Shown piece by piece: positions 54,725 to 64,000 of a DNA stretch of 64,000 nt. Source of the DNA: Candidatus Eiseniibacteriota bacterium (GTDB taxonomy: Bacteria > Eisenbacteria > RBG-16-71-46 > CAIMUX01); assembly GCA_903844735.1 (NCBI GenBank), contig CAIMUX010000104.1, positions 1-64,000 of the forward strand, written 5' to 3'. Within the stretch, counting starts at the first letter, position 1, and the number at the start of each line of letters is the position of its first letter. The notes below the pieces were generated by a model. It did no database searches. It was not told where the DNA came from and saw only the letters and a list, made by a program, of their open reading frames with translations. The position numbers and the translations under genes were made by a program.

Positions 54725-55897
54725 ATGATCGATCGGGCCGAACTCTCCGGCGACGCCCTCAATCTCGGCCTCATCGGGGTCGCCTGGCCGATGCGCGGGG
54801 GGATTGCCCAGTGCACCACCATTCTCGCCACTGAGCTGGCCAAGCGGCACCGTGTCGATCTCGTCTCTTTCACACGGCAATACCCGTCGTTTCTCTTCCC
54901 GGGGAAGAGGCAGCTCGCCCCCAGCGCCACCCCACTCCGTTTTCCGTCGACCCCTCTGGTCGACAGCATCGGTCCGTTTAGCTGGGAGCGCGCGGCGCGA
55001 CACCTGGCCCGGGGACGTCCCGATGCTCTCGTGTACCAGTATTGGATGCCGTTCTTTGCCCCCGCTTTGGGGACAATTGCTCGGCGGGTGAAGCGCATGT
55101 GTCGCCCGCGCGAAGTGCGAACGATCATGATGGTGCACAACCTGCTGCCTCACGAGCGGCGCCCGTTCGACGGCGTGCTCACACGCTATGTCATGGGAGC
55201 GACGGATGCCTACATCGTGCAGTCGGGGGCGGTGCGGGAAGACTTAGTCCGTCTGGAACCGAACGCACGGTTTCTCGAAGTGCCGCACCCGGTGTACAAT
55301 GTTTTCGGCGATCCGATCCCGAAGGGCGAGGCGCGGGCGTCACTCGGGTTGCCGGCGGATTCACCGCTCCTTCTGTTCTTCGGATTCGTGCGGCGGTACA
55401 AGGGGCTTGATACGCTTCTGCGCGCGCTTCCGGCGATCCGCGCGGCCCTCGACCCGCCGCCGCGGCTCCTGGTCCTCGGCGAGTTCTACGAAGGGCGGGA
55501 AGAGACGGCGGCCCTGGTGCGCGAACTGGGCCTCGCAGACGCGGTCACCATCGTCGACGAGTACGTTCCCGACGAAATGGTAGGGCGCTACTTCTCCGCG
55601 GCCGACGCGGTGGTGCTTCCGTACAAGTCGGCTACGCAGAGCGGGATCGTGCAAATCGCCTACCAGTTGGAGCGTCCGGTGATCTGCACGGATGTCGGCG
55701 GGTTGGGCGAGGTCGTGCGCGACGGCGAGACCGGATTCGTGGTGCCGCCGGATGACCCGGGGGCGTTGGCGGAAGCGGTGGTACGCTACCAGCGCGACGC
55801 CTGCGAGACGGGCTTCATGCAGCGGATCCGAGTGGAGAAGCGCAAGTACTCCTGGGACCGGATGGCCAAGGCGGTCGAGACCCTCGCCGGCGCGTGA
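54725..55897 (+). CDS. GT4-type glycosyltransferase
   Basis: A 390-residue GT-B fold enzyme moving a sugar from a nucleotide donor to a lipid- or glycan-bound acceptor at the inner face of the membrane. The N-terminal domain begins LNLGLIGVAWPMRGGIAQ (glycine-rich acceptor loop). The C-terminal domain shows LLFFGFVRRYKGLDTLLRAL, then the donor-binding region LPYKSATQSGIVQIAYQLER, where the usual first Glu of the EX7E pair is replaced. The ATG at 54725 has GGGAGG upstream. It is followed after 22 bp by a phosphoheptose isomerase-like gene, so a lipopolysaccharide or surface-glycan role is likely. Confidence 0.9.
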   Translation: MIDRAELSGDALNLGLIGVAWPMRGGIAQCTTILATELAKRHRVDLVSFTRQYPSFLFPGKRQLAPSATPLRFPSTPLVDSIGPFSWERAARHLARGRPDALVYQYWMPFFAPALGTIARRVKRMCRPREVRTIMMVHNLLPHERRPFDGVLTRYVMGATDAYIVQSGAVREDLVRLEPNARFLEVPHPVYNVFGDPIPKGEARASLGLPADSPLLLFFGFVRRYKGLDTLLRALPAIRAALDPPPRLLVLGEFYEGREETAALVRELGLADAVTIVDEYVPDEMVGRYFSAADAVVLPYKSATQSGIVQIAYQLERPVICTDVGGLGEVVRDGETGFVVPPDDPGALAEAVVRYQRDACETGFMQRIRVEKRKYSWDRMAKAVETLAGA

Positions 55898-55919
55898 AGC
55901 GAGGCTGAACAGGAAGGGG

Positions 55920-56504
55920 ATGGCGACGGTGATCAATCCGGATGAGATCAAGGAACGCATCGAGACGGCGATCGCGGTCAAGCGGTCGTTACTGGACCAG
56001 GCGCTCACCATCGGTCACGTGGCCGAAGCATGGCTGGATGCGTTGCGTGCCGGAAGCAAAGTGATCTTCTTCGGCAACGGCGGATCCGCCGCCGATGCGC
56101 AGCATCTCGAGTGCGAGCTGGCGGGTCGCTTCTACTTGGACCGCCGTCCGCTGCCCGCGGTGGCGCTCACCGTGAACAGCTCCTCGCTCACCGCCATCGG
56201 TAACGACTACGGCTTCGAGCAGGTGTTCGCGCGGCAGCTCGAGGGGATCGCGCATCCCGGGGATGTGGCGGTCGGGATCTCTACCAGCGGCACCTCTCCG
56301 AACGTCGTCCTGGCGCTGCAGAAGGCCCGCGAACTGGGCCTCGTCACCATCGGCCTCACCGGACGCCACGGCGGCCTGATGCGGGAGCTGTGCGACGTGT
56401 GGCTGGCGATCGATTCCGAGGAGACGCCGCGGATCCAGGAGGGGCACATTCTGGCCGGGCATATCGCTTGTGAAATGGTGGAGCGGGAGATGTTTGGGGG
56501 CTGA
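55920..56504 (+). CDS. gmhA: Phosphoheptose isomerase-like SIS protein
   Basis: A 194-residue SIS-domain sugar isomerase, most like D-sedoheptulose-7-phosphate isomerase, the first step of ADP-heptose synthesis for lipopolysaccharide. Diagnostic segments are FFGNGGSAADAQHLECELAGRF, the Ser/Thr-rich phosphate loop GISTSGTSPNVV, and the C-terminal QEGHILAGHIACEMVE with Glu and His as in GmhA. Length is normal. The ATG is preceded by AGGAAGGGG. It is adjacent to a glycosyltransferase in the same direction. A DiaA-type regulatory SIS protein is a less likely alternative. Confidence 0.9.
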   Translation: MATVINPDEIKERIETAIAVKRSLLDQALTIGHVAEAWLDALRAGSKVIFFGNGGSAADAQHLECELAGRFYLDRRPLPAVALTVNSSSLTAIGNDYGFEQVFARQLEGIAHPGDVAVGISTSGTSPNVVLALQKARELGLVTIGLTGRHGGLMRELCDVWLAIDSEETPRIQEGHILAGHIACEMVEREMFGG

Positions 56505-56602: not shown

Positions 56603-56674
56603 CACCACGTTCTTGAACCTGTGCGCGGCTCTATCTCTCCCCGGAAGCTCGGTCCACAGATCGGGAGGTGGTGC

Positions 56675-59017
56675 GTGATCACATTGGTAGCGCTGGCCGA
56701 AAGCACAGCGAATGCGGCCCGACGCCAGACCGGAGGGACCGCGGCCCCGGGGCCTCATGTGGCTTTCCACACGACGGTCGTCCCACGGAGGTGGACCTCG
56801 CCCCCCCGGCGCACAACCCGGCTTCTCCTGGGGGCGCTGGCCTTGGCGGCGGTCTTGGTCTTGGGCGCAATCCCCGCGCCTGTCCTGGCAGCCGCACCTC
56901 AGGTCACCAATGTAGTCGCCGTCCAGCGCCCGGGCACCCGGCTCGTCGATGTTACCTACGACCTTTACGACGCCGACGGCCACGCGATGACGGTCGCGCT
57001 CGACATCTCACCCGACGGGGGGCTGAGCTTCCCCATTCATTGCATGACGGTCTCCGGGGACGTGGGTATTGGCATCATGAGCGGCACGGGCCGACACATC
57101 GAGTGGGACGCGGGGGTCGATTACCCCAGCCACCTGGGAGAGACGTACGCCCCCAAGGTGATCGCCGACGACGGGCAGGGCTTTGATGGGATGGTCCGGA
57201 TCCCGGCGGGCAACGTGCGGCTGGGCCAGCCCGGCAACCCGCTTTCCGAACCCGTCAACGACTTCTATGTCCAGGGCTTCTACATCGACCGCTATGAGGT
57301 CTCGAACGCCAAGTACAAGGCGTTCATCGATGCCGGGGGGTACACGACGCAGGCGTACTGGAATCCGGTCGGCTGGGCCTGGAGGGTGGCGAACAGCATC
57401 ACGCTGCCGGACCGTTGGAACGATACGATCTACCATGGCGGCGGGATCACCGGTAACGGACAGTTCCCCGTGGGCGTCTCCTGGTGGGAGGCTGATGCCT
57501 ACAGCCGCTGGGCGGGCGTGCGTCTACCGACCGAGGCGGAGTGGGAGAAGGCCGCAAAGGGGGGCTGCGAGACCCACGGAGATCCGGGGCAGTGCGACGC
57601 CTCCGACACGCCGAGCTACCCCTGGGGCGAGGGGATCAGCGGCTCGCAGGCCAACTTCTCCGAGAGCGGCGATCCCTATGAGAACAACGGTTGGACGACC
57701 CCGGTGGGCTACTACGACGGCAGCAACCACGGTGGCTACCAGACACTCGACAGTCCGAGTCCCTATGGTCTCTATGACGTGGTGGGCAATGTCACGGAAT
57801 GGTGCAGCACGAAGTACGCACCCTATCCCTACGACCCGAATGACGGCCGGGAGAACCCTCCGGTGTCCTACCATGAGCAGTACCGGGTTATACGTGGCGC
57901 CTCCTGCGGCCACCCCGAACTCGATGTCGACCTCCGCTGCGCCCACCGCCACGCTTACAGCCCGGACTCGAGGCCTTGGGACATCGGCTTCCGTTGTGCG
58001 AGAACCGGCGGGTGGGGGGTGGGTCCGCTGTTTCATCTGGACACACAGGTTCCTCCTATGGGCTCCTGCTGTGCGCTAGACGGCACCTGCGCCGTGACGC
58101 TGCAGGCCGCCTGCACTGCCCCCAGCTCCTGGACCCTCGCTGGCGTCTGCGACCCGAACCCCTGCGACCAGCCGCAACCGGGGATGGGCGCCTGCTGCAC
58201 GTCTCCCAGCTTTGGGTGCTGCGAGCTCCTTACGCCAATGGCATGTGCCGAACGCCCCGGGATGTACTTGGGCGACGGTACCTCCTGCGCGGTGGAGGGG
58301 ATCTACTGCGAGATCACGATGGCGGGGGCGTGTTGTCTTGCGGACGGCACGTGCACCGAAGTGAGCGTCTGCGACTGCGGAAGATACGGTGGACGCTTCA
58401 TGGGAGGGTCCTCGTTCTGTGATCCGAACCCCTGTGAGGCGACCCCGGTCCTCCTCGAGTCGTGGGCTGCGTTGTCGCTGCCCGAAGGCCTGCAGATCCT
58501 CTGGGAGGTGCCGCTCGCCACGACCGGGGCTATGTACCGGGTCTGGCGCGACCCTGTGGCCGGGCCGCATGACGCAGCACCCACGCCTGATGCGGTTCTG
58601 GTGTCATCCGCGTGGGTCAGCGCGTCCGCCGAAGGGATCATTGCGATCACAGACCCGGGGGCCCCGCGCGGCGCTACGATTCGCTACTTCCTCGAAATGA
58701 GCGCCACCGGTGCTCGCAGCGAATTCCTCGGTCCCGCGGAAGCTCGCTGGGACCCGCCGACACTCGCCTGGTCGGCCGGTCCGACCCCGTTCCGCGACAC
58801 GGTGCGGCTCGCTCCTCCCAGGACGGGTCCGGCCCGCGCAGAGATCTTCGATCCGGCCGGACGGCTTGTACGGACCCTGGTGCGCGCTGACGGCAACGCC
58901 CCGCTGGAGTGGGACGGCCGGGATGATGTCGGTCGCGACGCGCCCACCGGAATCTACATCGTCCGCGTCGGGAGTACCGCCGGCGGGGCGGTGGCGAGGT
59001 TGGTGAAGATTCGATAG
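56675..59017 (+). CDS. Exported SUMF1/formylglycine-generating-enzyme-like protein with Cys-rich region and FlgD-like tail
   Basis: A 780-residue exported protein. After a long N-region, a signal helix (about 50-75, LLLGALALAAVLVLGAIPAP) ends at VLAA. A beta-rich domain follows, then the SUMF1/FGE-sulfatase domain (about 170-450: YIDRYEVSNAKYKAFIDAGG, VSWWEADAYSRWAGVRLPTE, YGLYDVVGNVTEWC, DIGFRCART). Next come three Cys-rich units of the form CC-x-DG-x-C (about 460-590), and a C-terminal FlgD-Ig-like domain (AEIFDPAGRLVRTLVRADG to the end), a module common on secreted proteins of FCB-type bacteria. GTG at 56675 has GGGAGG six bases upstream and is preferred over the ATG at 56621. A sulfatase-maturation role is not implied; many SUMF1 proteins have other functions. 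Confidence 0.85.
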   Translation: MITLVALAESTANAARRQTGGTAAPGPHVAFHTTVVPRRWTSPPRRTTRLLLGALALAAVLVLGAIPAPVLAAAPQVTNVVAVQRPGTRLVDVTYDLYDADGHAMTVALDISPDGGLSFPIHCMTVSGDVGIGIMSGTGRHIEWDAGVDYPSHLGETYAPKVIADDGQGFDGMVRIPAGNVRLGQPGNPLSEPVNDFYVQGFYIDRYEVSNAKYKAFIDAGGYTTQAYWNPVGWAWRVANSITLPDRWNDTIYHGGGITGNGQFPVGVSWWEADAYSRWAGVRLPTEAEWEKAAKGGCETHGDPGQCDASDTPSYPWGEGISGSQANFSESGDPYENNGWTTPVGYYDGSNHGGYQTLDSPSPYGLYDVVGNVTEWCSTKYAPYPYDPNDGRENPPVSYHEQYRVIRGASCGHPELDVDLRCAHRHAYSPDSRPWDIGFRCARTGGWGVGPLFHLDTQVPPMGSCCALDGTCAVTLQAACTAPSSWTLAGVCDPNPCDQPQPGMGACCTSPSFGCCELLTPMACAERPGMYLGDGTSCAVEGIYCEITMAGACCLADGTCTEVSVCDCGRYGGRFMGGSSFCDPNPCEATPVLLESWAALSLPEGLQILWEVPLATTGAMYRVWRDPVAGPHDAAPTPDAVLVSSAWVSASAEGIIAITDPGAPRGATIRYFLEMSATGARSEFLGPAEARWDPPTLAWSAGPTPFRDTVRLAPPRTGPARAEIFDPAGRLVRTLVRADGNAPLEWDGRDDVGRDAPTGIYIVRVGSTAGGAVARLVKIR

Positions 59018-59025
59018 ACGCACGA

Positions 59026-59513
59026 ACGACGCAGATGAGTCGGCCGCCCGGAAGAAGCGCGGCATACGCCTGTTGCCAAACCCGGTCGAGTTGGGCGAGG
59101 AACTCTTCGTAGCCTTCGATATGCCCAAGCTGTCCGTGCGTGTCTCGGTACTCCTTGAGTGTCCAGTAGGGCGGGGAGGTCAAGACCAGATGGGCGCTTC
59201 CATCCGGCACGCCCGACGGCGCTCGGGAATCGACCAGGCAAAGGGAGTGAGAGGTCGGGATCCGGCGTACGGCCTCTTCGATCCGTGCGGTCGCGGCGCG
59301 ATTCTTGGCTATGCGCGGGAGTGCGGTTTAGGGATTGTCGAGGGGAGGCAGCCCGTCGGGAAGGAAGCTCGGCAACGCCGAGGTGGGGCCTGCCAGCGGG
59401 GCACCTGCCAGTCGGGCAGCGGCGAGTGGGGCAATTGCCGCCGGAGCCTTCGCCAGCGGGGCATCGGCCACCGTTGGCTGGGGCCTGGCGGCAGACTTCT
59501 TCCTGGCCGGCAT
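59026..59513 (-). pseudogene. Truncated DNA methyltransferase (N4/N6 type) with an in-frame stop
   Basis: The minus strand reads a DNA methyltransferase N-terminus: start MPARKKSAARPQPT, an Ala/Pro-rich leader, a TAA at 59328-59330, then in the same frame ARIEEAVRRIPTSHSLCL, HLVLTSPPYWTLKEYRDTHG (the catalytic TSPPY motif) and YAALLPGGRLICVV. Homology ends a few codons before the SUMF1 gene's stop region, where the frame becomes pure antisense of that gene, so the SAM-binding and target-recognition parts are gone. A nonsense codon plus a 3' truncation makes it a remnant. No restriction enzyme gene is nearby. If the SPPY frame is translated from the GTG at 59210, only a short inactive peptide would result. 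Confidence 0.75.
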
Positions 59514-59643: not shown

Positions 59644-60447
59644 TCAGCCCCCGATCGCCCGCACCGTTCCCCCGATCCAGTCGATGATCAGAAAGTTCAT
59701 CCGCCCGATGAGCAGCGAAACCCGCCCCATCACGGTATACCCGAACGCCGCTCCGAACCCGAGCATCAGAAACCAGATCCCCAACCGGCTCATCCCGCCC
59801 ACGGCGCCGCGGTGCTCCAACGAGAAGAAAAAGTAGATCAGCACCATGATCACCCCGACGAAAAGCAGGAGGTTGTCGAGGGCGTCGGCGGCGAGTGGAA
59901 AGGCAACCTGAGCGACGACCCGTGCGACGATCCAGGTCGAGACGAAGATGACCGCACCCCTTGTCAGGTGGCCCCGGGCCGAGTCGATGAGCCCAAGGAC
60001 GAGGGCTGTGGCCGCCAGAGTCACGAGAAGGGCCGTCGTCCCGGCGATCGGGAACGCACCCAGAAGCGGCATCATGGTCGCACCCGCCTGCGGCAACACC
60101 TCGCCTTGCAGCTTCTGCACCATGTTGACCCCGGTGTAGTACCCGACATACACAGCCAGGGAAAACCGCGCCATCCAGGCAATGCGCGGGATGTAACGGG
60201 TGTAGAGGTTGAGCCCGAGCAGCGCGGGGATGACAAGATCGTAGTTGCCACGGAAGTCGTGAACCAGCGGCAGGACCAGGTTCGGCTTCAGCGTGTTGTT
60301 CGCCGTCTGTCCGATGTAGTACCCGAGCGAAACGCCGGCGAAGAGCGCCTCCGCGAAGCGGAAGAACGGGTTGTCCTTGTACAGGAAGCTGAACAGGCAC
60401 AGCGTGAGAAGCGCCGCGATCCAGGTCCCGATGAGCTCGATCGACAC
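59644..60447 (-). CDS. Polytopic membrane protein of unknown function (operon gene 4)
   Basis: A 267-residue integral membrane protein with seven or eight predicted helices, among them LIGTWIAALLTLCLFSFLY, FAEALFAGVSLGYYIGQT, FSLAVYVGYYTGVNMV, IAGTTALLVTLAATALVL, NLLLFVGVIMVLIYFFF and IWFLMLGFGAAFGYTVMG. Conserved-looking polar residues sit in the loop NNTLKPNLVLPLVHDFRGNY. It starts at GTG 60447 behind AGGAGGG, only 13 bp after the preceding gene, as the last member of a four-gene membrane operon. I recognise no family. The helix pattern does not match common transporters. Confidence 0.8.
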   Translation of the reverse strand: MSIELIGTWIAALLTLCLFSFLYKDNPFFRFAEALFAGVSLGYYIGQTANNTLKPNLVLPLVHDFRGNYDLVIPALLGLNLYTRYIPRIAWMARFSLAVYVGYYTGVNMVQKLQGEVLPQAGATMMPLLGAFPIAGTTALLVTLAATALVLGLIDSARGHLTRGAVIFVSTWIVARVVAQVAFPLAADALDNLLLFVGVIMVLIYFFFSLEHRGAVGGMSRLGIWFLMLGFGAAFGYTVMGRVSLLIGRMNFLIIDWIGGTVRAIGG

Positions 60448-60460
60448 TTGTTCGGCCCTC

Positions 60461-61351
60461 CTAGACGCGCGCCGCGCGGGACCGGCCGAGGAAGTAGGCC
60501 ACGTTCCCGATGATGATGAAGCCGATGATGATGGCGTGGATGATCGTCTGGACGTCCATGCCCCGCATGGCGTTGAAGATCATCGGGTTGTCGTAGACAG
60601 GCTTCACCTGCGGGTAGGCATCGAGGAGCAGCCGCTCATACTCCGAGGCCCCCTTGAGTCCGCCGAGAAGCCCGATCATCTGGTGACTGTCGTAATAGGC
60701 GTAGAACTTCGGCGCCGACACGGCGGTGCATCCGACCGCCACAGGGGTGCCGAACTGGGCATTGATGAGGTTGATCCACCAATCGCCGATGATTCCGGTG
60801 GCGAGGCTGACCACCAGCTTGATGTCCCGGTAGTTGCGCACCTTCTGCATCAGGGGAAGCCGGCTCAACGGCGTGCCGCGGGAGTCGGAGGGAAAGACCC
60901 TGGCGATATCCTCGCCCATCTGCTTCATCGAGGCCTGGCCGCCGTCCTTATAGCCGAGGTTCACGAAGTCGGTGCCGTAGCGCAGAGTCGGGAACTCCGC
61001 GGCTACGCGATCCAACTCCTCAGTGGCCATCGCTCCGCCCCCGATGGGGAAAAGTGCCAAGACGACCACCTTGACGCGGCGGGCGAGGCAGTGGCGCAGC
61101 ACCGCCGCGGCCATCGGCCCGTTCTCCGGCTTGGTGGTCGGGCCATAGTCGAAGGAGACCATCACCACATCATCGGGCGTGAGCGACTCGATCCGGTCGA
61201 AGAGATCCCGCACCGGCGGCGTGACCGTAACCGACAGCCCGATGGGAAAGAGGATGGGCAGGATCGCTCCCACCGCCACGAGAAGGAAAATCCAGCGCCG
61301 ATCCAACTGCTGCAAAGCGGTGGAGAGCCCGCCTTCCTTGATCTTCGCCAC
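60461..61351 (-). CDS. Periplasmic alpha/beta domain tethered by two membrane helices (operon gene 3)
   Basis: A 296-residue protein with one helix at each end (about 20-40, WIFLLVAVGAILPILFPIG; about 270-290, IIHAIIIGFIIIGNVAYFL). The domain between them, about 220 residues, alternates strand and helix in Rossmann-like fashion: DDVVMVSFDYGPTTKPENGP, VKVVVLALFPIGGGAMATEE, DIKLVVSLATGIIGDWWINL, TPVAVGCTAVSAPKFYAYY. By the positive-inside rule the domain appears to face the periplasm. GTG 61351 has an AGGAGG site, nine bases after the preceding gene. I do not recognise the family. The glycine-rich loops could bind a nucleotide or sugar phosphate, which is only inferred. Confidence 0.8.
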   Translation of the reverse strand: MAKIKEGGLSTALQQLDRRWIFLLVAVGAILPILFPIGLSVTVTPPVRDLFDRIESLTPDDVVMVSFDYGPTTKPENGPMAAAVLRHCLARRVKVVVLALFPIGGGAMATEELDRVAAEFPTLRYGTDFVNLGYKDGGQASMKQMGEDIARVFPSDSRGTPLSRLPLMQKVRNYRDIKLVVSLATGIIGDWWINLINAQFGTPVAVGCTAVSAPKFYAYYDSHQMIGLLGGLKGASEYERLLLDAYPQVKPVYDNPMIFNAMRGMDVQTIIHAIIIGFIIIGNVAYFLGRSRAARV

Positions 61352-61360
61352 GGCCTCCTC

Positions 61361-62059
61361 CTAGTCCTTTTCCAGGCCGAGGTAGCTGCGCTCGATCCCG
61401 AGGATGACGCGCAGAGAAAGAGAAGCGGCGCCGAGGGCCGCCCCGATCATGATGCCGCGCTGGGCGGCGGTGTTGGGATTGTTCATCAGCCACTCGGTGA
61501 AGGTGCCGAGGGCGAGCTTTCCGCCTGGAATCCAGGCGAAGAGCGACTCGCCGAGCGGGATCCGTCCGAGCATCACCACCACCGCTGCCAGGAGGAGGAT
61601 GGTCGCCTCCAGATTGCGCACGCGGAAGGCGCGGAAGGCGGCCGAGGCGACGTAGAAGGCGAGGAGGCTGAACATCGTTGCCTGCAGCGGCTGGAACACG
61701 TAGCTCACGAAGAAACTGAAGGGGCTGGGGGAGCCGTCGGCGTGCGGCGAGATGCCATGGAACGGGCCGACGTTGAACGCGCCGAGCAGGCCGAAGCTGC
61801 CGGGCAAGACGAGACCGATCAGGAGGAAGATCGCATAGTGCCAGCCCGGGCCTTTCCGCTCGATCTTGCGGATGTTTCCCTGCACGACATTTACCACCCC
61901 GAGCATGATGGCGAAGCCGGCGATGATGATCATCCACTTTTCCAGTCGGTCGTTGGGCACTTTCACCAGCCGCGCTTTCTCAGTGAAGAAGAACGCCACG
62001 ATCGGGATCAATCCGGCCAGAAACGTGAGTAGGAGCGGCAACTGCACGCGCAAGAACAT
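61361..62059 (-). CDS. Polytopic membrane protein of unknown function (operon gene 2)
   Basis: A 232-residue protein with six or seven helices: LLLTFLAGLIPIVAFFFT, WMIIIAGFAIMLGVVNVV, WHYAIFLLIGLVLPGSFGLL, MFSLLAFYVASAAFRAF, ATILLLAAVVVMLGRIPLG and a C-terminal helix in IMIGAALGAASLSLRVILG. A loop holding the Gly/Pro/His-rich segment NVGPFHGISPHADGSPSP lies between helices 3 and 4. Helices 1 and 2 are joined by a basic cytoplasmic loop. The ATG at 62059 has AGGAGG, 50 bp downstream of the DUF6754-like gene. No family recognised. Confidence 0.8.
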   Translation of the reverse strand: MFLRVQLPLLLTFLAGLIPIVAFFFTEKARLVKVPNDRLEKWMIIIAGFAIMLGVVNVVQGNIRKIERKGPGWHYAIFLLIGLVLPGSFGLLGAFNVGPFHGISPHADGSPSPFSFFVSYVFQPLQATMFSLLAFYVASAAFRAFRVRNLEATILLLAAVVVMLGRIPLGESLFAWIPGGKLALGTFTEWLMNNPNTAAQRGIMIGAALGAASLSLRVILGIERSYLGLEKD

Positions 62060-62109
62060 GGGGTGGTCCTCCTGGCCCGGGTTACCTGGTCGCGGCTACC
62101 TGGCTCTGG

Positions 62110-62895
62110 CTATCTGGCCCGGAACAGCCGGGCGAGGTCGAAAAGGCCGGTGGTGGCGGCCAATGTGCCGACGATGATGGCGAGCCCAACCAGCGCCTTG
62201 GTCCAGTCCTGCCCCTTGATGCTCCCGAGCATGGCCGGGTCGCGGGAGAGGTAGGCGCCGGCGGCGTAGAGTTCCTCACCGATCAGGGTGTAGTCGCAGG
62301 CGCAGACGAAGAACGGAAGCTGGGCGATCTCGGCTGTCCCCGCGATCTGAATCGCCCCGGATGCCTGTCCGGTCTCTGCGAGCAGCAGTGACTCGGCGGC
62401 GAATGAGCCGATGAGGAAGTTCGTGGCCGGTCGCTCGCGCATCATGATTCCGGCCACGGAGGCGGTGTAGGCGAACTGGTCATAGGTCACGTAATGAACG
62501 ATCGAATCGTTGTAGAGGTCGGGCCGCCCCTCCTGGATGTAGGCCTCCTTCACCGTCTCGCGGGCCGAGGCAAACGTGAGCGGATCCTTGTTCGGGACAT
62601 CGAGCTCTGTATTATAGCGCGCGGTCATACGAGCGACGTGCGAGAGGACGGCGAGGCTGGCGATCGTTTGATTCTCGTCGATGGACGAGATGCCGGGCAC
62701 GTAGAGGACTTTCCGCCCCAGCTCGGTCGCCCGGCCCACCGCCTCGTCGATGGCGTTCAGTCCTGCGATCTTGCGGATGAACAGATCCTGCCGCGTCCGG
62801 GCCGCCCGGATAAACCAGAGGATGAGGGTGCAGAAGAGGAGAAAGAGCACGAAGGCGTTCGCCCGTTGGAGGTTGAAGTGCAGAAACCCTTCCAT
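62110..62895 (-). CDS. DUF6754-like membrane protein (operon gene 1)
   Basis: A 261-residue protein with an N-terminal helix (about 13-30, NAFVLFLLFCTLILWFI), a central soluble domain of about 190 residues (LYVPGISSIDENQTIASLAV, YNTELDVPNKDPLTFASAR, NFLIGSFAAESLLLAETG, QIAGTAEIAQLPFFVCACDY) and a C-terminal helix (ALVGLAIIVGTLAATTGLF). The whole resembles what I remember as DUF6754, a family of unknown function; that name needs a profile search. The ATG at 62895 has GGGAG upstream. It lies 74 bp after metG and leads a tight four-gene set, so all four products probably form one inner-membrane complex. Confidence 0.75.
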   Translation of the reverse strand: MEGFLHFNLQRANAFVLFLLFCTLILWFIRAARTRQDLFIRKIAGLNAIDEAVGRATELGRKVLYVPGISSIDENQTIASLAVLSHVARMTARYNTELDVPNKDPLTFASARETVKEAYIQEGRPDLYNDSIVHYVTYDQFAYTASVAGIMMRERPATNFLIGSFAAESLLLAETGQASGAIQIAGTAEIAQLPFFVCACDYTLIGEELYAAGAYLSRDPAMLGSIKGQDWTKALVGLAIIVGTLAATTGLFDLARLFRAR

Positions 62896-62969: not shown

Positions 62970-64000
62970 CTAGCCCGGTGTATCCGTGGCCGTCTCGATG
63001 CGTGGGAACAACGGCCCGCCCGGACGGATCGGTGCTCCGGGCCTGAGCCCGCCCCAGCGCAGCCAGGCCGGGTCGGCCGGACCCGCCACGAGGGCCTCAG
63101 GCGCGTCGATCATCCCCAGCCGGTACAGCGCTTCGCCGCACTTACCCGGCATCACGGGAATGAGAAGCGAGACCGCGAGCCGAATCGCCTCTGCCGCCGT
63201 CGCCAGGGTGGCCGCGATCGCCTCCGGGCCGCCGTCCTTCACCGCCTTCCACGGGGCCTTCACCTCGAGGTACCGGTTGACGGCGCGCACCAACTCCATG
63301 GTTTCCTCGATCGCCTGGTGGATCCGGACCTCGTCCATGGCGGCGAAGACCTTGTCGATCGTCAATCGCGCCTGCTGTGCCAGCCCCTCGTCGGCCGCAT
63401 CAAGGCTGCTCGGCGCGGGAATGCGGTCGGCGAAATGGGCGTGGATCATCCGTTCGACCCGGTTCAGGCAGTTGCCCAGATCGTTGGCCAAGTCGGAGTT
63501 GATACGGGCGATGAGTGCGGGCTCAGAGAAATCGGAGTCGAGTCCCACCACCATGTCCCGCATGAGGAAGAAGCGGAAGCCATCGGCGCCGTAGGTCTCG
63601 CTCATGCGGATCGGATGTACGACATTGCCCAGCGACTTGGACATCTTGCGGCCCGCATGGGTCCACCATCCGTGGGCCAGGATGGTCGTGGGCAACTCCA
63701 GGCCGGCCGCGCGCAGCATCGTGGGCCAGTAGACGGCGTGGGTGGTGAGGATGTCCTTGGCGATAAGCTGGCAGGTCGCGGGCCACCAGCCGTCGAGACC
63801 CGGTGCCTCCATCCCCTCCACGGCGCTGTAGTAGTTGAGGAGGGCGTCAAACCAGACGTAGGTCACGTACTCGGGGTCGAACGGAAGGGGAATACCCCAA
63901 CTGAGCCGGGCCGCCGGCCGGCTGATGCAGAGGTCCCCCAGTGGCTTCTTCAGGAATCCGAGAACCTCGTTGCGACGGGAATGGGGCTGAATGAACCCCG
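62970..64000 (-). CDS. metG: Methionyl-tRNA synthetase, C-terminal part (cut by the window edge)
   Basis: The frame is open to the last base of the window; about 343 codons of the C-terminal part are visible. It charges tRNA-Met. Signatures are ISRPAARLSWGIPLPFDP, YVWFDALLNYYSAVEG, the class I KMSKS loop in HAGRKMSKSLGNVVHP, and the helical anticodon-binding domain. No C-terminal tRNA-binding (EMAP-like) domain follows, so it is the compact form. The HIGH motif lies outside the window. The GTG at 63866 is internal and not a start. The four-gene membrane operon follows in the same direction after 74 bp and may be read through from metG. Confidence 0.96.
   Translation of the reverse strand, partial: GFIQPHSRRNEVLGFLKKPLGDLCISRPAARLSWGIPLPFDPEYVTYVWFDALLNYYSAVEGMEAPGLDGWWPATCQLIAKDILTTHAVYWPTMLRAAGLELPTTILAHGWWTHAGRKMSKSLGNVVHPIRMSETYGADGFRFFLMRDMVVGLDSDFSEPALIARINSDLANDLGNCLNRVERMIHAHFADRIPAPSSLDAADEGLAQQARLTIDKVFAAMDEVRIHQAIEETMELVRAVNRYLEVKAPWKAVKDGGPEAIAATLATAAEAIRLAVSLLIPVMPGKCGEALYRLGMIDAPEALVAGPADPAWLRWGGLRPGAPIRPGGPLFPRIETATDTPG

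Follow-up and report, generated by a model that had tools for sequence, protein, structure and literature searches.

What are four adjacent membrane-protein genes on a Candidatus Eiseniibacteriota contig doing together, and do they act alone? The genes lie in a 64,000-nucleotide stretch of contig CAIMUX010000104.1 (hereafter the window), all on the reverse strand, and we refer to them in 5' to 3' order as A, B, C and D. Each is an open reading frame. A (62110..62895) encodes a 261-amino-acid protein matching the Pfam family DUF6754; B (61361..62059) a protein of 232 residues with about six transmembrane helices; C (60461..61351) a protein of 296 residues modeled as an alpha/beta, Rossmann-like domain flanked by two transmembrane helices; and D (59644..60447) a protein of 267 residues with about seven transmembrane helices. 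The family-averaged hydropathy behind these counts (two, about six, two and about seven helices) bears out the topologies given in a preliminary description of the locus. The single strand and the intergenic gaps of 50 bp (A/B), 9 bp (B/C) and 13 bp (C/D) reported there also agree exactly with the coordinates. A strong AGGAGG-type site, claimed for every gene, precedes B, C and D, but A has only a weaker GGGAG. As set out below, we are confident that ABCD, together with a second gene set, T, S, F and E (TSFE), constitutes a conserved, previously undescribed multi-protein system.

We surveyed gene neighborhoods in four groups of genomes, a check that the preliminary description had proposed, and found that the four genes co-occur. 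Among copies in which the A gene was not interrupted by the end of a contig or fetched stretch (uncut copies, n=120), the A-B-C-D order was kept in 112, drawn from four phylum-level groups. Each of the four proteins belongs to a conserved family in its own right, and their common order in several phylum-level groups goes beyond chance. One could suppose that four unrelated membrane genes merely came to lie side by side, and the absence of homology among the four proteins (hhalign probabilities of ~2% or less) fits that idea, but it is already refuted by conservation: order and strand persist across several phylum-level groups, and whole units recur as tandem repeats. We therefore give it practically no credence.

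Of 47 genomes from the window's phylum (relatives' records are titled Candidatus Eisenbacteria and similar), 45 encode a DUF6754 protein, as do all 118 sampled Zixibacteria (118/118), mostly with 3–6 copies, and 75 of 294 Planctomycetota; none of 14 control genomes had one. A genome titled 'Deltaproteobacteria' carried a single, lone ABCD unit. Tandem arrays of two or three complete units are frequent in Zixibacteria, and the source genome of the window has five DUF6754 copies. A quick tree (FastTree) of 115 units, built from the four proteins joined, resolved the units linked to T-S-F-E as one old class, and the first, second and third positions of the Zixibacteria tandems as separate old clades, each of which also includes units of the window's phylum. 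The window unit fell into a 12-member clade with a support of 100, and the neighbors of these window-class copies are not conserved between genomes. Judged by this phylogeny, the ABCD copies are ancient paralogue classes, and the window copy is one stand-alone class. The preliminary description needs correcting on one point: the source genome holds five paralogous units, the one in the window included. A literature search for DUF6754 or PF20539 found no paper, and B, C and D belong to no family.

One ABCD unit per genome is often preceded by four further genes, giving the order T-S-F-E-A-B-C-D. In Planctomycetota and the window's phylum, many genomes have this arrangement, with T, S, F and E directly upstream; many Zixibacteria instead carry E and F in divergent orientation to ABCD. 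T is a small membrane protein of ~150 amino acids, S has ~130 amino acids, F has 605 and E has 375. The presence of the two gene sets is correlated. Across the 294 Planctomycetota, A and E were both found in 67 genomes, A only in 8, E only in 3 and neither in 216 (p=4e-53); in the window's phylum, 44 of the 47 genomes had A together with F, 1 had A only, 0 had F only and 2 had neither (p=0.003). These tests take genomes as independent and ignore kinship; the p values therefore exaggerate how strong the association is. The 'Deltaproteobacteria'-titled genome with its lone ABCD has S-F-E on another contig. E was found in 111 of the 118 Zixibacteria, nearly always as one copy, leaving aside divergent fusion paralogues and genes split by contig ends. 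Copy number is thus asymmetric: TSFE is single copy and ABCD is multicopy. A single four-gene system, as first described, survives as a conserved unit, but this unit is only the membrane half of a larger T/S/F/E system.

T-S-F-E also adjoins, in many members of the window's phylum, genes that read as glycine-cleavage-like (gcvT, gcvH, gcvPA and gcvPB; loci L135, L057, L059, L073, L079, L143, L145, L151 and L152). No recurrent cluster of this kind appeared among the Planctomycetota or Zixibacteria loci read.

F provides the clearest hint of biochemistry. It matches the Pfam family MutL (PF13941) over model positions 1–450 with an E value of 4.9e-129 and 431 bits (cut-off 27), and 48 of 48 full-length F sequences retain two phosphate motifs, D-GSTTTK and D(I/V)GGATTD. 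As this family includes GlmL and the ornithine-degradation protein Or-4, ABCD could be a membrane-bound corrinoid-linked or radical enzyme, or a cofactor-handling complex, which F would free of inactive cofactor through ATP hydrolysis, in the manner proposed for GlmL on glutamate mutase, with E as an adaptor. The many invariant residues that the family alignment reveals in A, as an active site might show, would suit this idea, as would a cobalamin riboswitch (94.6 bits) in the source genome (locus L045:16241-16440, contig C5). Another ABCD copy lies ~5.6 kb downstream of this riboswitch, and both share their strand with TonB-dependent-receptor-like, beta-propeller-like and porin-like genes. 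However, F falls far below the equivalog cut-offs for both GlmL (NF040745; 239.8 bits against 475) and Or-4 (216 bits against 600). Glutamate mutase E (PF06368) scored above its cut-off in 0 of the 47 genomes of the phylum, 44 of which have F, although other B12-dependent aminomutases were not searched. No B12-binding Pfam domain occurs in A–D, and Rfam scans of the other stretches, including the surroundings of the window unit and of the SFE loci scanned, matched neither cobalamin nor glycine riboswitches nor any other riboswitch near those loci. We consider an enzyme of this kind unlikely. Because F scores below the equivalog level and glutamate mutase E was not found, we regard F, on its sequence, as a GlmL relative with a different role; literature searches on GlmL found nothing relevant.

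E yielded weak matches to the barrel-sandwich domains RnfC_N, Biotin_lipoyl and NQRA_N. A lipoyl or biotin carrier role was rejected, as E has no conserved lysine: neither a lysine nor a cysteine is conserved above 80%. Comparison of the E profile with solved structures gave chance-level matches only. A divergent paralogue, encoded away from ABCD, fuses F and E in one protein of ~850–990 amino acids (L136:3923-6898; also L137, L138, L139, L141, L142, L158, L159 and L160); it occurs in some Zixibacteria and in several members of the order to which the window belongs. The existence of this fusion suggests that F and E touch each other. The fusion gene adjoins a UPF0047/YjbQ gene and, in L139, also one for a radical SAM protein.

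A matches PF20539 (DUF6754) over model positions 6–253 of 257 (E value 1.8e-113, 378.4 bits, cut-off 27) and by this match is an unambiguous, full-length member, so that the earlier label 'DUF6754-like' named the right family but understated the relationship. Its family-averaged hydropathy indicates an N-terminal transmembrane helix, a soluble domain of ~200 residues and a C-terminal transmembrane helix. Most A orthologues have a signal-peptide-like start and at least one fn3-like segment ahead of the first helix (the fn3 matches are weak), and a K/R-rich sequence directly after it. From these features and the positive-inside rule, the DUF6754 domain is probably cytoplasmic. The A of the window lacks the N-terminal fn3-like ectodomain that most paralogues carry. 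A is also the best conserved of the four proteins, with a mean pairwise identity of 0.545 (0.42 for B, 0.39 for C and 0.41 for D), which fits a common docking partner on the inside and unit-specific partners outside. Its sequence profile matched no solved structure, and its structure model was poor, with a mean predicted local distance difference test score (pLDDT) of 63, too weak for interpretation.

C has one transmembrane helix at each end of a soluble domain of ~230 residues, again by family-averaged hydropathy. Positive residues lie before the first helix and after the last, and the domain between is net negative; by the positive-inside rule this domain is therefore probably extracytoplasmic. 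An AlphaFold2 model built from 12 sequences (mean pLDDT 89.8, predicted template modeling score 0.86) shows a Rossmann-like alpha/beta domain between the two helices, as the preliminary description had read from the letters. That description's placement of two soluble domains on opposite sides likewise looks probable, given the hydropathy and charge patterns and the fn3-like N termini of A orthologues. In C, a conserved loop, DYxPxxxxExxPM, directly follows the first strand, and Rossmann-like folds usually bind ligands just after the first strand. The second transmembrane helix of C carries a conserved Q/H/N. Searching the model with Foldseek returned generic Rossmann-type folds only, none below an E value of 0.001.

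Such a loop in an extracytoplasmic domain, together with fn3-like modules and several paralogues, is what a signaling system might display, in which C or the ectodomain of A senses a ligand and the DUF6754 domain relays the signal to F and E. We think this improbable, as the families that recur as main neighbors include no regulator, kinase, cyclase or DNA-binding gene, and two polytopic proteins exceed the needs of a sensor.

B, C and D matched no Pfam or NCBIfam family above cut-off, and their sequence profiles matched no solved structure, in keeping with the earlier statement that they belong to no known transporter, secretion or respiratory family. Of the two results that could have spoken against a novel complex, homology of the polytopic members to transporters and a gene order not conserved elsewhere, neither was found when both were tested. 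D has a conserved motif, SFLYxDNPxYxxxE. Some weak candidates were rejected: septation protein IspA for B (PF04279, 17.7 bits against a gathering threshold of 28.7, over 53 hydrophobic residues), CbiN for C, and comparable matches, all short hydrophobic stretches below cut-off. The soluble domains of A and C look alike by eye, but hhalign gave a probability of ~1–2% for A–C homology; for B and D it gave 0.6%.

How might these parts work together? We infer a physical complex in which interchangeable ABCD units share one TSFE ATPase module and ATP powers transport or remodeling across the inner membrane, the best of the readings considered, which we put forward tentatively as a whole. E, S and T would anchor F to A at its conserved, cytoplasmic DUF6754 domain, and ATP cycling by F would drive a conformational change in the membrane core formed by B and D. 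The extracytoplasmic alpha/beta domain of C, with the fn3-like ectodomain of A if present, would bind a ligand specific to the unit, so that a single energizing module would be common to several specificity units. Transport as the function, the likeliest task, is a somewhat doubtful element of this proposal. We are similarly reserved about the view that the system would be a machine of a new kind, with an actin-like ATPase module of the GlmL family, equipped with a barrel-sandwich adaptor, energizing several exchangeable four-protein units in the inner membrane.

Several observations weigh against this proposal. In 8 of the 120 uncut copies, part of BCD is missing beside A. Four of these are Planctomycetota loci (L117, L130, L131 and L122) where A directly follows E, and where B, C and D, or C and D, are missing beside A, with no search made elsewhere in the genome; the four others are Zixibacteria loci with N runs in the fetched stretch. 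In the source genome, S-F-E, plus a match to T, lies on contig C121 with no ABCD seen beside it, the contig ending just after E. A was not detected in the three Planctomycetota counted as having E only, and one of those E matches is a 28-residue fragment. B and D have no transporter homology in Pfam or NCBIfam, the role known for GlmL-type ATPases is to reactivate enzymes, not to power transport, and the gene neighborhoods contain no recurring substrate hint.

The same parts could also make up a trans-envelope structural or force-transducing machine, in which the fn3-like ectodomain of A and the domain of C would reach the envelope or outer membrane, while actin-like movement or assembly would come from F. 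Ectodomains outside, an actin-fold ATPase inside and near-universal presence in two sampled groups would all be expected of it, and some Zixibacteria E/F clusters lie near TolQ/ExbB-, TonB- and Pal-like genes. But those neighbors occur at only about six related loci, the A of the window copy has no ectodomain, and five co-existing paralogous units suit substrate specificity better; we judge such a machine rather unlikely.

In the window, metG shares its strand with ABCD and ends at 62970, 74 bp upstream of A. We rejected it as a functional partner because nearest-class copies in other genomes have unrelated neighbors; the adjacency is incidental. Just downstream of D, on the reverse strand at 58677-59210, lies a remnant of a DNA methyltransferase N terminus with a TSPPYW motif, apparently a broken gene: it scores 23.4 bits against the N6_N4_Mtase cut-off of 26.7 and extends into the antisense of the next gene. 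That gene (56621-59017, forward strand) encodes a secreted formylglycine-generating-enzyme-like protein (FGE-sulfatase, E value 6e-50) with a C-terminal FlgD_ig domain. A protein resembling, by eye, GmhA-type sedoheptulose-7-phosphate isomerases is encoded at 55692-56504 (forward strand) and at L055:15933-16523; at both of these loci, whose units are of one class, the gene lies a few kilobases downstream of D, which may be chance. Searches of plasmids, phages and viral contigs found no match that would indicate a mobile or viral origin, and the PADLOC anti-phage defense models matched none of A–F.

The preliminary description was right in direction and is partly supported, but it underestimated the size, age and spread of the system. 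The presence of the set in every sampled Zixibacteria genome, usually in several versions, points to a basic role in the cell. F ties a family regarded only as enzyme repairers to a putative membrane complex, in genomes without a detected glutamate mutase. The system would further supply a functional context for DUF6754 and add no fewer than five protein families (B, C, D, E and S).

How does this system relate to known ones? A is a full-length member of PF20539, to our knowledge a family without an assigned function, whereas B, C and D, its partners, could be assigned to no family at all. F resembles GlmL/MutL (PF13941; GlmL is the methylaspartate mutase accessory protein) in its match to the whole 450-position model and in its phosphate motifs; it differs in its length of 605 amino acids, its sub-equivalog score and its occurrence in genomes without a detected glutamate mutase. 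Rnf and NQR complexes share a layout of polytopic subunits with a tethered extracytoplasmic domain, and E weakly resembles the barrel-sandwich of RnfC (RnfC_N in 14/29 E sequences, best E value 5.3e-6; NQRA_N, weakly, in 3/29). However, E has no detected RnfC or NqrA domain beyond the barrel-sandwich and no conserved iron-sulfur cysteines, and neither B nor D matches a membrane subunit of Rnf or Nqr. In group II energy-coupling factor (ECF) transporters, one shared energizing module serves several substrate-specific membrane units. No ATP-binding cassette (ABC)-type ATPase or ECF protein is among the Pfam matches of A–D, F and E, and the ATPase here belongs to the actin/Hsp70-like superfamily. 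The likeness of TSFE and ABCD to group II ECF transporters is thus one of organization and not of family: a genetic logic in which a single-copy ATPase module is paired with exchangeable membrane units.

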